Both the position numbers and the translations under genes were made by a program. From Gemmata massiliana (GTDB lineage Bacteria; Planctomycetota; Planctomycetia; Gemmatales; Gemmataceae): a stretch of 64,000 nucleotides of DNA. Under the pieces are notes generated by a model. That model did no database searches and was not told the DNA's origin. It saw only the letters and a list, made by a program, of their open reading frames with translations. The stretch is from contig HG799463.1 in the NCBI GenBank assembly GCA_000531095.1, positions 602,723 through 666,722 on the forward strand, given 5' to 3'. Position 1 is the first letter of the stretch. The number at the start of each line of letters is the position of its first letter. Positions 561 to 41,282 of the stretch are shown one piece after another.

Positions 561-890
561 TCACTTCTTCGGCAACATCTCCACGAACTTTAGCGCCCGC
601 TCGATCCAGCCCGCCAACTGCTCATCGTCCTCGACGCCTTCCGGCTCGATCCGCACCCAATTCCGCATCGGCTTGCCGGTGATGTCGAACACCCTGACGT
701 GCGGCTCCAGTAGAGCCGCCTCGCCCTCCTCGGGGCCGAGGCGGGCGATGAGCGAGTCCTTCCACGCGCCGACGAGCAAGTTGCCGTTCAGCAGGAAACA
801 GTCGCAGCCGAACATCCTCTTCTCCTCGACGTTCTTACGGCGGGCCAGGGCATCACGGATGCGGGCGGCGAGGGATTCGTCAAACGCCAT
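561..890 (-). CDS. TfoX/Sxy family N-terminal domain protein
   Basis: This 109-residue protein is a single TfoX N-terminal domain, recognised by the early MFG-C-F-LNGN-LVG pattern (KRMFGCDCFLLNGNLLVGAW), the conserved RLGPEE stretch and the C-terminal WIERALKFVE helix. In gamma-proteobacteria the full TfoX/Sxy is a competence regulator; stand-alone N-domain proteins are widespread and their role is not established. I chose the ATG at 888-890 because the domain starts there; the frame stays open further upstream. It lies 5 bases downstream of a zinc-ribbon ORF on the same strand, so the two probably share a transcript. Confidence 0.8.
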   Translation of the reverse strand: MAFDESLAARIRDALARRKNVEEKRMFGCDCFLLNGNLLVGAWKDSLIARLGPEEGEAALLEPHVRVFDITGKPMRNWVRIEPEGVEDDEQLAGWIERALKFVEMLPKK

Positions 891-35373: not shown

Positions 35374-38300
35374 TTACCCGCAGCCCGTGGTTTCACCGCA
35401 GGTATCGCACTTCATACAGGCGCCACTGCGCACGAGCGTCATTTGCTGACAGTTCGAGCACGGGTCGCCCTCGTACCCCTTCAGACGCGCGGCCCGAATC
35501 CGCTCCGACTGCGATCCGGCTACCGGCGTGTAGCTGTTCCGCGGCGGGAGCACCGCGGCTCCGTTGGACGCCTTCGAGTGGCCATTACCGTTCCCATTTC
35601 CGTTGCCGTTCGCGTGCCCGTTACCGTTCCCGTTCGTGTCACGCGGCGGGGGTGATTGCACCACGTCGCTACCCGACTTGTTGCCCCCGTTGCCGGTCGG
35701 CTTCAGGTGCGCCGAGCGCGGGTGGGCAATACCGGACTTCGGCGGGGCCTTCGGATCGACCGTCCGCGTGCTCACGACCTCTTCGTCGCCCTCGAAGTCG
35801 TCGTCCTCGTCGTGCAGCGAGTCCCCGCGGAGGTCTTCCGGCAACACGTGGGCCAAGTCCTTGCGGTCCAGGTACGTGATGGCCAGTTCCCGGAAGATGT
35901 AGTCGATGATCGACGTGGACATCTTGATGTACGGGTTCCCCTGCACCACCCCGTTCGGCTCGAAGCGCGTGAACAGGAACGCATCAATGTACTCTTCGAG
36001 CGGCACCCCGTGCTGGAGCCCGAGCGACACCGCGATGGCGAAGCAGTTCGTCATGCTGCGGAACGCGGCGCCCTCTTTGTGCATATCGATGAAGATCTCG
36101 CCGAGCGTACCGTCCTCGTACTCGCCCGTGCGGATGTACATCTTGTGGCTGCCGATGCGGGCCTTCTGCGTGTACCCCGCCCGGCGGTCCGGGAGCCGGC
36201 GCCGCTTCGCGATGTACCGGTGAACGATCCGCTCCGTGATCCGCTCGGCGACCTGCACCGGGGCGGCCTTCGGCTCGGCCTTCTCTGCGTCCGGGATGAC
36301 CGACGCGAGCAGGGCGGCTTCGGGCGAATCGGCGACCGAGTTGAGCGGCTGGCTGAGCTTCGAGCCGTCGCGGTAGAGCGCGTTGGCCTTGGTCATCAAT
36401 TGCCACGAGAGCAGGTACGCCTTCTTCACGTCCTCGACGGTCGCGTCGTAGGGCATGTTGATGGTCTTCGAGATCGCGCCGCTGATGTACGGCTGCGCCG
36501 CGGCCATCATGCGGATGTGCGCCTCCCACGACAGGAACCGCTTGCCGATCTTGCCACACTTGTTGGCACAATCGAACACCGGGTAGTGCTCGGCCTTCAG
36601 GTGCGGCGCGCCCTCAATGGTCATCGTGCCGCAGACGTAGGCGTTCGCTTCCGTGACCTGTTGCTTGCTGAAGCCCAAGTGCGAGAGCAGGTCGAACGTC
36701 GGGTTGGCGAGAGCCTCGGCCGACACCTTCAACGTGTTCTTGACGAAGTCCTCGCCCAGCGTCCACAAGTTGAACACGAACGGCAGCTCGAACGTGCCGG
36801 GGAGTTGTGCTTCGATCTTCTTGAGCACCTCGTCCGTGAACCCCTTCGCCTTGAGAACTGAGGGGTTGATGTGCGGGCACCCGTTGAGCGTGGCTGCCCC
36901 GCGGCTGTACCGCACGATGTCCTCGACCTGCCACGGAGCGTAGCCGAGCTTCGCGAGTGCGGGCGGCACCGACTGGTTGATGATTTTGAAGTACCCGCCG
37001 CCCGCGAGCTTCTTGAACTTCACCAGCGCGAAGTCCGGCTCGATGCCCGTGGTGTCGCAGTCCATGACCAGGCCGATGGTCCCGGTCGGGGCAATGACCG
37101 TGACTTGAGCGTTCCGGTACCCGTGGCGCTCGCCGAGTTCGAGCATCCGGTCGGACTCGCGCCGCGCGGTCGCGAGCATGTCGGCCGGGCAGTACCGGGC
37201 GTCGATACCGACCGGGAACACGGTCAGCCCCTCGTACTCCGCGGGGGCGGCGTTGTACGTGGCGCGGCGGTGGTTGCGGATCACCCGCAGCATGTGGTCA
37301 CGGTTGTCCGCGAACCGCACGAACGGCCCGACCTCCGCGGCCATTTCCGCGCTGGCGGCGTAAGCGCCCGCGTGCATGATCGCGGTGAGCGCGCCGCACT
37401 GGGCGCGGCCCTCGGGCGAGTCGTAGGGGATGCCCTGCACCATGAGCAGCGCGCCCAGGTTCGCGTAGCCGAGGCCGAGCGTGCGGAAGTCGTAAGACTT
37501 CTGCGCGACGGACGGACTCGGGAACTGCGCCATGTACACGCTGACTTCCAGGATCATCGTCCAGATGCGGACCGCGTGCCGGTACGCCTCGATGTCGAAC
37601 TTGTTCGCCTTCACGTCGAAGAACGTCGTGAGGTTCAGCGACGCGAGGTTGCACGCCGTGTCGTCGAGGAACAGGTACTCGGAGCAATTGTGAACGGTAA
37701 TACCGTTGGCAACGAAGTGGTGCGTTACGGGTTCCGTCAGGTCGTACACCGATTCGACGCCCAGGTACTCGAGGCTCTCGACTGGGTCTTCGAGCCGATC
37801 GGCGTAGGTCGTGACCTCGCGGTTGAGGCGCGCCAGTTGTTCGCACTTCGGGCTACCGGGAACGAACCCGATCTCACGCTCGAAAACGAGCCGCGAGGTG
37901 CGGCTGATTCGCAGGCTGTGGACCTGCTGAACCGGGTACTCTTTGACCCCACCGCGGCCGTCGGGAAGCATCGCCGTCGTCTGCCCAGCCACTCGCCGGT
38001 TGGTGTACAGCTTCGCTTTAACACCGAACGACAGAAGTAGCAATTGGACCTGTCTGAGCAGGTCGAGCGAACAACTGTCGAGGCTGATGTACTGTGATTT
38101 GGCACCGTACTGGGCTACGGTCCCGTCGGCGGTGAAGAGGCCACGAAGGACACCCGCGAGCGAGGCACGGTCGAGGCGGAAGACGTCGCTGGTGAATTGC
38201 TTGGCAGCACTGCCCTCGTTTAACACGGCGAACCGCTTCAGAACGTCCACCACACACCGACTGCCGGTGCCAACGCGCACGGTCGCTTGCGGACTGGTCA

Positions 38301-40239
38301 CATGCGTTTCGCGTGCGCCGCGCCCGTCGACCGCGAACTCGGATCGGTACGAGCGGAGGTCTTCGTGTACCCGCTCCGCAACAGCTTGCTCTTCGGGCGC
38401 GAGGGTCACCATCGCGGCTTCCCGCTCACCCATCAAGCACCCGTCACCGACCATTAAGCCGAGGTATTCAGTCAACCGCGAATCGAGTTCCACGAACCCG
38501 TGCACCGGGCGCGGGTCGCGCCGGTCCGCGAATACGCCGCGTCCCAACTGCACCACGTCGTCCTTCGTCAACTCGCAGGCCGGTACGTCCCCGCGGTTCA
38601 CGGTCAACACACGGTGGTCGCCGGTCAACTTAACTTCAAAGCCGGCGCGCGTCCGGAGCCGGTACACGGGCTTCTCACCGGTTTTGAAAGCCGGCTTGAT
38701 GGAGTGAAGCTCACCATCCGCACCGACAACGGCCGTAGCGCGTTCAAGCAGTTGATCGATCTGGATCAATCCGTCCGCGGTGGCAACCAGAGTGTCTCCC
38801 GTCACACACGGGTTACTCGCCCGAATGTCCCCGTCGAGGGGGCACGTGTGCCACTCGTTGATGGTGGTGTGGAACTGCACGCCGGGGTCGGCACAGCTCC
38901 ACGCGGCGTAAGAGATCTGCTCCCACAAGTCGCGTGCGGGAATCGTCCGCTTGGCCTTCGGCGCGCGGTTCTCCTTCTTGGCCTTCTCCAGTTCCGTGCG
39001 CCAGTACAGGTGCCACGGGCCGTTCGTCTCCACGGCCTTCATGAACTCGTTGGGAATGCGCACCGAGTTGTTGCTGTTCTGCCCCGAAACGGTGTAGTAC
39101 GCCTTGGACGTCCAGTCGGTGTCGTATTCGTCCACCTCGATGCTCTTCCACCCCTGGCGTGCGAGTTGCAACACGCGGGCGATGTAGTTTTCGGGCACGA
39201 GTGCCGCACGCGCGTCGAGCACCGACTTGCGAAGCCCCGCGTTCTTCGCCGGGTCGTACCGCTCCTCGGCGACCGCGTGGCCGTGAATGGCCTTCATCAC
39301 CGCATTGAGGTGCTTGTTCAGCAACTTCGAGCCGGTCACGAGGTCCGCGACCTTCAGCTCCTCGGTCACCTTCCAGTTGACGAACTCTTCGATGTCCGGG
39401 TGGTCGAGGTCGAGCACGACCATCTTCGCGGCTCTGCGCGTGGTCCCACCGCTCTTGATCGCCCCGGCCGCCCGGTCGCCGATCTTGAGGAAGCTCATCA
39501 GCCCCGACGATTTACCGCCGCCAGAAAGAGGTTCGCCCTCACCGCGCAGCGACGAGAAGTTCGACCCGGTGCCGCTGCCGTATTTGAAGATGCGCGCCTC
39601 ACGGACCCACAGGTCCATGATGCCGCCATCGTTCACGAGATCATCCGAGACGTGCTGGATGAAGCACGCATGCGGCGCGGGCCGCTCGTAAGCGCTCGTG
39701 GACCGTTCGAGTTGCCCCGTGAGCGGGTTGACGAAGTGGTGGCCCTGGGGCGGGCCTTCGATGCCGTAGGCCCAGTGCAGCCCGGTGTTGAACCACTGCG
39801 GGCTGTTCGGGGCCGCCATCTGCATCGCGAGCATGTGGCAGGTTTCGTCGTAGAACGCCCGCGCGTCGCGTTCAGAGGTGAAGTATCCGCCCTTCCAGCC
39901 CCAATACGTCCAGCACCCTGCGAGCCGGTGGAACACCTGGCGCGAGTCCGATTCCCCGCCGGTCGGGGTACTTGGTGATTCGGGCGCGCTGCGCTGAATC
40001 CACGAAGGCACGTTCTCTTCGACAACGTGCGTGAGGTGCATGGGCACCCCGGCCCGCCGGAAGTATTTTTGCGCGAGGATGTCGACCGCGACTTGCGACC
40101 ACTTCGCGGGCACCATCACGTCGTTCATCTCGAACACGACCGACCCGTTGGGGTTGCGGATCGTGGAGCTCCGGGGGGCGAACTCGATGCCGGCGAACGG
40201 ATCTTGACCCTCGCGGGTAAATTTGCGGGTGATCTGCAT
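35374..40239 (-). CDS. nrdJ: class II (B12-dependent) ribonucleotide reductase with intein
   Basis: The 1621-residue precursor reduces ribonucleotides with adenosylcobalamin. The N-extein (1-477) holds [24 protein letters not shown] and [11 protein letters not shown]. The C-extein (852-1621) resumes at [19 protein letters not shown] and contains the thiyl-radical region and [16 protein letters not shown]. The end is an NG-repeat linker ([16 protein letters not shown]) and a zinc-binding tail (CSNCQQ...[14 protein letters not shown]) typical of this long type. An intein splits the conserved NPC-SEY site. Without it the enzyme is about 1247 residues, normal for planctomycetes. The start is ATG 40237-40239. 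A dCTP deaminase gene lies upstream. Confidence 0.95.
37687..38808 (-). other. intein in NrdJ with LAGLIDADG homing endonuclease motifs
   Basis: This is a 374-residue in-frame insert. It starts with Cys ([13 protein letters not shown], block A), has block B around [10 protein letters not shown] and ends with [13 protein letters not shown] (blocks F and G, terminal His-Asn), followed by Cys as first C-extein residue; all splicing residues are present. Two dodecapeptide motifs of the LAGLIDADG endonuclease, YLGLMVGDG and LRGLFTADG, lie in the middle at about intein residues 128-136 and 223-231, with acidic residues kept. It therefore looks like a full intein able to splice and possibly to home. 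It sits between the Pro and Cys of the conserved NPCSEY site of the reductase. Confidence 0.93.
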
Positions 40240-40549
40240 ATCTGGGTCCGGCAAGATTATTGAGCGAAAAAGATCGGCCCGTCCGTGAACCGGTCTTCAT
40301 GATCGCGTCGCCTGCACTTGATCGGCAGACGAAGTCACCGAGGCACCGCCAAGATTTGTCGCGCGATCCAGGGCGCCCAATGCGCCTCCGGAACAACCGC
40401 TACAAACCCCCAAAACCATTCTACAGCAATTGTGAACACTATTCCACTATCCGCTACGCGGTCAAAACTGGCGCATTCCGAACTGACCATAAAACGAGCG
40501 CGGCGAGCACCTAAACGGATACTCGCCGCGCTCACAGAATTACGCGATC
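40240..40549. other. region between nrdJ and dcd
   Basis: These 310 bases lie upstream of nrdJ and downstream of dcd. The dcd terminator is at 40496-40533. The rest is AT-richer and may contain the nrdJ promoter. I looked for a cobalamin riboswitch but found no clear B12-box sequence, and cannot exclude one by eye. Confidence 0.45.
40496..40533 (-). terminator. intrinsic terminator after dcd
   Basis: GAGCGCGGCGAG (40496-40507) pairs perfectly with 40522-40533, loop 14 bases. On the minus strand the stem is followed by GTTTTATGG. It lies 17 bases past the dcd stop, so dcd and nrdJ are separate transcripts. Confidence 0.85.
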
Positions 40550-41107
40550 TCAGTTGCCCGTGCCCGGCACAAACGGGAGCGTTAAACCCGTTTGGTCCTG
40601 GTACTTACCCTTCTTGTCCGCGTAGCTCGTGTGGCAGACCGCCTCGCCCTTGTAGAAGAGGATCTGCGCGATGCCCTCGTTCGCGTAGATCTTGGCAGGA
40701 AGCGGAGTTGTGTTGCTGATCTCGATCGTGATCCGCCCGCGCCACTCGGGCTCCAGCGGCGTTACGTTCACAATGATCCCGCACCGCGCGTAAGTGCTTT
40801 TCCCCAAACACACGCAGAGGATGTCGCGCGGGATTTCGAGGTACTCGACCGTTTCCGCGAGCGCGAAGCTGTTCGGCGGAATAATGCAGAAATCCGCGTC
40901 GACATCGACGAACGATTTCGGGTCGAAGTTCTTGGGATCGACCGTGCTGCCCCACACATTGGTGAAGACTTTAAACCGCCGGTCCACTCGCACGTCGTAA
41001 CCGTAACTCGTTACGCCGTAAGAGATGATGCCGGGTCGGTGTTGTTGCGGAGCGAAGGGCACGATCTTCACGTCGCGCTCGATCATCCAATCGGGTAGCA
41101 CGCCCAT
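40550..41107 (-). CDS. dcd: dCTP deaminase
   Basis: The 185-residue enzyme converts dCTP to dUTP (and ammonia), the first step to dTTP in many bacteria. Typical motifs are [13 protein letters not shown], the catalytic region [33 protein letters not shown] with the conserved Glu, and the C-terminal [14 protein letters not shown]. Length fits the family (about 190). The ATG at 41105-41107 has a strong GGAGGAAGG ribosome site. It sits upstream of nrdJ but is separated from it by a terminator; the two genes share the deoxynucleotide pathway. Confidence 0.93.
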
Positions 41108-41282
41108 CCCTTCCTCCACAACGGGTCCATTCGATTATCGGCTACTTTCGCGGTCGAGATACAAGCAAACGCGCAAGAACCGCGCACTGGAGCCGATCCA
41201 GTCAAAACTGCGGTAGCGGTGTCGATGGCCGAGCCGATACAACAGACACGCACACACACGACCGTCGACAGCGAGGACCGCG

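Follow-up and report, generated by a model that had tools for sequence, protein, structure and literature searches.

The nrdJ gene of Gemmata massiliana, encoded within a 64,000-nucleotide stretch of contig HG799463.1 (positions 602,723 to 666,722; here referred to as the window), is interrupted in frame by a 374-amino-acid insert at 37687 to 38808 on the minus strand. This insert is very probably a class 1 intein, with a cysteine at its first position and another at the +1 position, that carries a nested LAGLIDADG homing endonuclease and that would splice, cut empty target sites and owe its arrival to homing. Its host is an adenosylcobalamin-dependent (class II) ribonucleotide reductase, and the element adds a further member to an NrdJ intein allele that travels widely and occurs in presence/absence polymorphism. 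A sequence-only reading of this DNA had proposed that a planctomycete class II NrdJ contains a complete, likely active intein whose LAGLIDADG endonuclease seems intact, and sequence, family, structure-model and comparative tests agree with this, with activity as the inferred part. Its coordinates and length for the insert were correct to the base, and every feature that it had listed, namely, Cys1, the block B histidine, the terminal His-Asn pair, the +1 Cys and both LAGLIDADG motifs, was found.

The nrdJ reading frame (35374 to 40254, minus strand, as are all features of the gene given here) was assigned by Pfam, NCBIfam and its translation and consists of 1626 uninterrupted codons plus a stop codon. 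While the listed start is a TTG, an ATG at 40239 is the more likely start codon, because the protein read from this codon aligns with the solved structure of an NrdJ (7b9q) from its residue 1. The insert occupies codons 483 to 856, with the junctions RASNP/C...HN/CSEY, where the slashes mark its ends. Splicing block A with Cys1 lies at 38770 to 38808, block B (LTGDHRV, containing T62 and H65) lies at 38608 to 38628, and the terminal splicing blocks with H373 and N374 lie at 37687 to 37749. Between them, the LAGLIDADG endonuclease domain (residues about 105 to 335; 37804 to 38496), delimited by Pfam and the structure model, contains the first LAGLIDADG motif with the catalytic residue D122 (38431 to 38475) and the second with D228 (38113 to 38160). 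The insert matches the Pfam families LAGLIDADG_3 (1.5e-17; second half, residues 217 to 314) and Intein_splicing (1.4e-14), and the NCBIfam models intein_Nterm and intein_Cterm both score above their cut-offs within it.

An AlphaFold model of the intein, calculated from 70 aligned inteins of the window and the loci, has a mean predicted local distance difference test score of 94.9 and a predicted template modelling score of 0.93. Structural matching with Foldseek and VIA-align related this model most closely, among solved structures, to TliVMA (7qss; Z score of 27.9 and root mean square deviation [rmsd] of 3.5 over 314 residues) and PI-PfuI (1dq3; Z score of 27.1 and rmsd of 4.2 over 323 residues), both with matches that span residues 1 to 374, as well as to PI-SceI (1lws; Z score of 22.8 over 317 residues). 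Its outer part resembles the mini-intein Ssp DnaB (1mi8; Z score of 20.7 and rmsd of 1.9 over 129 residues), and residues 106 to 330 align with I-DmoI (Z score of about 18). The predicted fold is thus a Hint splicing domain with an I-DmoI-like endonuclease, which agrees with activity but is no proof of it.

Ribonucleotide reductase domains are recognized by Pfam on both flanks of the insert. The N-extein (38809 to 40239), which ends in GDIRASNP, aligns end to end with residues 1 to 475 of 7b9q, so that the NP dipeptide ends at residue 475, and the C-extein (35374 to 37686), which was aligned with 7b9q and 1xje and begins with the sequence CSEYLF, places its first residue, the +1 Cys, on residue 476. 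The same cysteine aligns with C322 of the Thermotoga NrdJ (1xje), which we take to be the thiyl-radical cysteine of that enzyme. By alignment, therefore, the +1 Cys is the catalytic cysteine of NrdJ. According to two papers (PMC6459318, PMC6370689), all ribonucleotide reductases use a thiyl radical in catalysis. In the mechanism that we propose, the Hint domain would excise itself after translation through an N-S acyl shift at the Pro(-1)-Cys1 bond, transfer to the +1 Cys, cyclization of Asn374 and a final S-N shift, which would join NP to CSEY and restore the N-P-C-S-E active-site motif. With N and P kept apart from this cysteine by the intein, the unspliced precursor would have no reductase activity. 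The endonuclease would recognize uninterrupted NP/CSEY coding DNA, into which the intein would be copied by break repair.

Related inteins were collected by a scan of genome contigs, from which the best 80 of 169 relatives were kept, and by a viral scan, from which the best 6 of 79 loci were examined; as the search patterns were taken from the window intein, distant relatives are under-sampled. Among 96 loci read, from Bacteria, Archaea and viral contigs, the arrangement NP/C...HN/C was read in all 92 that contain both junctions, the other four (L156, L158, L180 and L181) being truncated by a contig end or matched only in part. After 21 duplicate or partial loci were dropped and 10 family or order genomes were added, 85 inteins whose rows reach both ends were compared. 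Residues C1, T62, H65, H373 and N374 are present in all 85, D122 is present in 81 and D228 is present in 82, with one or both aspartates replaced in five (G017, G037, L100, L154 and L177; G numbers denote genomes and L numbers denote loci, with G000 being the window's own genome). Fifteen of 102 genomes of the host order match at an E value of 1e-10, and 11 of these carry the window's intein at an E value of 2e-100 or better, in 12 matches because one gene is split over two contig ends; the weak matches of the remaining four, near 1e-11, are another thing than this intein. In a phylum-wide sample, 11 of 392 genomes match at an E value of 1e-20, including G000 itself and two partial matches. 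As a separate observation, four loci (L175, L176, L179 and L182), two of them viral contigs, hold distant intein relatives at NP/C in other reductase lineages, followed by CGEQ or CSET.

The distribution of the intein was read most closely in the host family. Of 95 family genomes, 82 match NrdJ near the site and 13 do not; three of the matches stop short (G060, G089 and G114), which leaves 79 readable genomes. The site is empty in 64 of these, a window-type intein is present in 10 (G000, G003, G011 as two contig-end halves, G014, G017, G022, G068, G071, G077 and G093), and 5 have an intein one codon downstream. When the DNA was recounted, all 64 empty genomes proved to have contiguous codons across the site. 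The genus contributes 19 genomes; of the 16 that can be read, 9 are empty, 5 carry the window-type intein and 2 carry the downstream one. The sister genome G008 has an empty site in an NrdJ that is 99% identical in protein and 95.7% identical in DNA, and the same holds for the next relative, G012 (96% and 92.8%, respectively). These empty genes are orthologous to the window's, as supported by a conserved adjoining gene (40550 to 41119, minus strand), used solely as a synteny marker and presumably dCTP-deaminase-like, whose counterparts beside the empty nrdJ are 99% (G008) and 98% (G012) identical; G008 nrdJ keeps its neighbors on both sides, and G012 nrdJ keeps the upstream ones in the 11 kb read. 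The empty sites that the sequence-only reading had suggested looking for in sister genomes thus exist. It had also proposed that presence or absence in close relatives would show recent homing. The closest sampled relatives are indeed empty, but the gain cannot be confidently dated after the split from G008, since the modelled probability that the common ancestor of G000 and G008 had the intein is 0.37. G017 has two NrdJ versions (L041 and L042), one with an intein whose first endonuclease Asp is replaced by Asn and one that is empty; the empty piece is 66% identical to the window's NrdJ and may be a second copy or contamination.

In light of that figure, it is conceivable that the ancestor of G000 and G008 already had the intein and that a precise loss followed in G008, a variant in timing that is compatible with a mobile, splicing intein and that we consider possible but the less probable course. 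The codon beside the site has changed from TCC to AGC in G008, whereas G000 and G012 share TCC, as this variant would allow. On the other hand, it needs a second loss in G012 and more losses deeper in the tree, and the modelled probability of presence falls to 0.13 one node down, where G012 joins.

Because its closest sampled relatives are without it, the window intein looks like a recently moved selfish element. In a tree of the 85 inteins, built by a quick method with one support value, it groups with those of G003 and G014 (99), inside a mainly planctomycete clade of 23 rows (97), which also includes one viral contig and two members each of the Chloroflexota, Myxococcota and Patescibacteria. 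The NrdJ of the window takes a different position in the tree of enzymes (90 rows, with four divergent rows excluded), beside the empty copies from G008 and G012 (98), and a distant branch (100) contains the enzymes of the Myxococcota locus L092, the Patescibacteria loci L097 and L099 and the virus L177. The two trees therefore conflict, and at least some of these inteins would have moved without the whole enzyme gene. Both Chloroflexota enzymes adjoin the host order, and for these, whole-gene transfer or wrong binning also fits; four enzyme rows (L178, L146, L131 and L160) have very long branches and an unsure placement, and names of metagenome bins may be wrong. When the 11 carriers are placed on an enzyme tree of 80 genomes, one of which (G037) belongs to another family, at least 10 changes are required, and a model with both gain and loss has a log likelihood of -30.7, compared with -43.7 for loss only and -46.4 for gain only, figures that are rough given rates near saturation and many weak branches. 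The ratio of intein to enzyme distance between G000 and G014 is 0.69 (95% range, 0.50 to 0.92), which fits movement between these lineages.

Several observations weigh against recent movement or against activity. Gain and loss were fitted at such high rates that almost no signal on ancestral states is left in the tree. The ratio of 0.69 is the only low one among the 28 pairs that 8 of the 10 carriers form, the remaining 27 being at 0.91 or more, and the intein and enzyme distances between G000 and G003 are equal, as vertical descent would also give. Synonymous divergence (dS) between the compared inteins is high or saturated, and there is therefore no recent common source among the sampled inteins. 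Differences between G000 and G008 along nrdJ reveal no co-conversion tract, that is, no donor-like stretch at the site, and the residues flanking the intein follow the host's own clade type. The GC content at third codon positions of the intein (0.749) is lower than that of its own gene, as in 9 of the 10 inteins compared, and is not foreign-looking; it falls within the range of the window's open reading frames, and foreign base composition was accordingly rejected as a sign of recent arrival. The residue at -1 is a proline, and a proline at this position slows the first splicing step in the Mth RIR1 intein; a literature search on this effect returned only unrelated papers. Finally, splicing of NrdJ is not strictly needed for life, as a class I NrdA with an ATP cone and an NrdB are also encoded in G000 (L292, C8:408512) in open frames without inteins. 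For this reason, we rejected the argument that NrdJ is the sole reductase and so must splice. NrdD was not found in the G000 assembly.

Measures of selective constraint count in favor of the proposed intein. The ratio of nonsynonymous to synonymous divergence (dN/dS) of the endonuclease is 0.04 to 0.08 among G000, G003 and G014, where dS could be estimated, and that of the splicing part is 0.04 to 0.05 in the two pairs with unsaturated dS; by these ratios, the endonuclease is conserved as strongly as the splicing part. On the G000 branch, NrdJ has undergone 28 synonymous codon changes and 1 amino acid change in the 680 codons compared, and the interrupted gene therefore still looks functional; the G008 branch has 33 and 5, respectively, with 10 unresolved. 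These figures bear on an explanation in which the intein splices and its endonuclease is inactive or mismatched to local targets, so that the element is merely inherited and lost around G000. Such a course would agree with the five of the 85 homologues (G017 and G037 among them) in which catalytic aspartates are replaced, with the 9 empty sites among 16 readable genomes of the genus and with the equal G000-G003 distances. However, the window intein has both catalytic aspartates, its endonuclease is under the same constraint as its splicing domain, and the loss-only model trails by about 13 log units, although many branches of the tree used are weak. We regard this explanation as unlikely. That the mature enzyme keeps the insert as one of its domains, as the frame and conservation of the insert might suggest, is hardly credible, since the insert is absent in 64 of 79 readable family members, would split the catalytic motif and has intact splicing residues. 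The same 64 uninterrupted orthologues, together with the five splicing residues shared by all 85 homologues, rule out a chance insert in frame.

We also considered whether hosts recode the target synonymously as a form of immunity. Across 80 genomes, the conserved Ser codon after the +1 Cys (37681 to 37683) has changed 20 times between TCN and AGY, the most of 12 conserved Ser columns (12 in the next), and codons close to the junction turn over at a mildly raised rate, with one-site permutation P values of 0.006 to 0.017 and equally high values in wider windows elsewhere. As a control, another planctomycete family was used, in which 41 of 42 genomes with a match are uninterrupted across the site; a family with only 3 genomes was not used. 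In 30 of these 41 genomes, the same Ser column is the most variable of 37 (8 switches, 4 in the next), and in 30 of the 64 empty Gemmataceae genomes, it has 10 switches (7 in the next) among 38 columns. The effect is equal in this nearly intein-free family and is therefore not tied to the intein, and the immunity proposal was rejected.

The second intein, with Ser at +1, lies at NPC/S in G006, G007, G029, G066 and G100 (loci L037, L038, L043, L286 to L291, L313 and L314). The junctions NPC/C...HN/SEY were read in four of these five genomes; in G100, the downstream junction only was read. The G007 intein, the only NPC/S member scanned for domains, contains HNH_3 and NUMOD3 and has weak, Hint-level similarity only to the window intein, and the G006 intein (302 amino acids) has much of its middle part missing. 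Both kinds occur together in none of the 79 genomes, where 0.6 would be expected by chance, so that co-absence is expected anyway and mutual exclusion would follow from geometry only. Tentatively, the LAGLIDADG (NP/C) and HNH/NUMOD3 (NPC/S) inteins may compete for one catalytic cysteine, with this competition driving a three-state turnover; if so, either insertion would destroy the other's target and the three allelic states would be mutually exclusive. Adjacent inteins are described as hindering each other's homing in haloarchaeal MCM (PMC10643990). At least four further NrdJ intein sites were seen in the family or order, before CFIQ, TGSNFS, TRRAAK and TIALVMD (L035, L036, L043, L046, L065 and L068). 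They hold both LAGLIDADG and HNH inteins, and the gene of G029 has four inteins in a 2857-codon frame.

Other proteins of G000 also contain inteins, namely, a DNA polymerase III alpha subunit, whose intein has LAGLIDADG, and a UvrD-type helicase (L002 and L003; contigs C1 and C6). Elsewhere in the window, ARAGORN places a tRNA-Ser with the anticodon act at 670 to 746 (minus strand), an anticodon that is unusual for a bacterial serine tRNA.

The filled and empty sister genomes, whose nrdJ genes are 95.7% identical, provide natural material for homing tests, and since the alignment places the +1 residue on the catalytic cysteine, splicing could be followed directly through reductase activity. 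Steps of a homing cycle are displayed by the family and its neighbors: empty sites, LAGLIDADG inteins, HNH inteins displaced by one codon and endonucleases in which a catalytic aspartate is replaced. No homing study in this bacterial group was found in the literature on planctomycete or Gemmata inteins and class II reductases, in the portions available, nor was a paper on the window intein, in sources that were mostly non-subscription ones; in PMC2814812, the terms sought occur solely in one line of the reference list. For the widespread reductase intein allele rir1-b, 15 Halobacteria, 55 Bacteria and 5 other Euryarchaeota are given in the passages seen of one survey (PMC4071816); these name the allele without a site sequence, and rir1-b is probably the NP/C site of the window. 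In the accessible text of that survey, the terms planctomyc-, Gemmat-, Isosphaera and Singulisphaera are absent. Inteins are common in reductases, with about 80 curated in RNRdb (PMC2795772), and those of phage reductases have been surveyed (PMC3653736).

Several known systems resemble the window intein. NCBIfam model PRK08332 covers NrdJ NP/C LAGLIDADG inteins, and intein residues 41 to 374 match its profile positions 941 to 1241, with the match continuing past the C-terminal junction into the enzyme, which indicates the same insertion point. The whole window protein, from a planctomycete host, scores 283.6 of 2400 bits, however, far under the model cut-off. We take PRK08332 to be the two-intein reductase of Pyrococcus furiosus, with PI-PfuII as its second intein, whereas the window NrdJ has one intein. 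TliVMA, PI-PfuI and PI-SceI match the model over its whole length at 18 to 20% identity, and the hosts of TliVMA and PI-SceI are, by name, VMA ATPases. The NrdJ-1 split intein (8ubs) matches the Hint fold (Z score of 19.7) and by name likewise has an NrdJ host; presumably, it is split, lacks an endonuclease and sits at NPC/S, one codon downstream of the window intein, at what would be the site of the second, HNH-type intein of the relatives. The Aquifex NrdB intein is also of the LAGLIDADG type and splits catalytic residues of a reductase (PMC8772380), but its host is a class I small subunit, while that of the window intein is the class II NrdJ.

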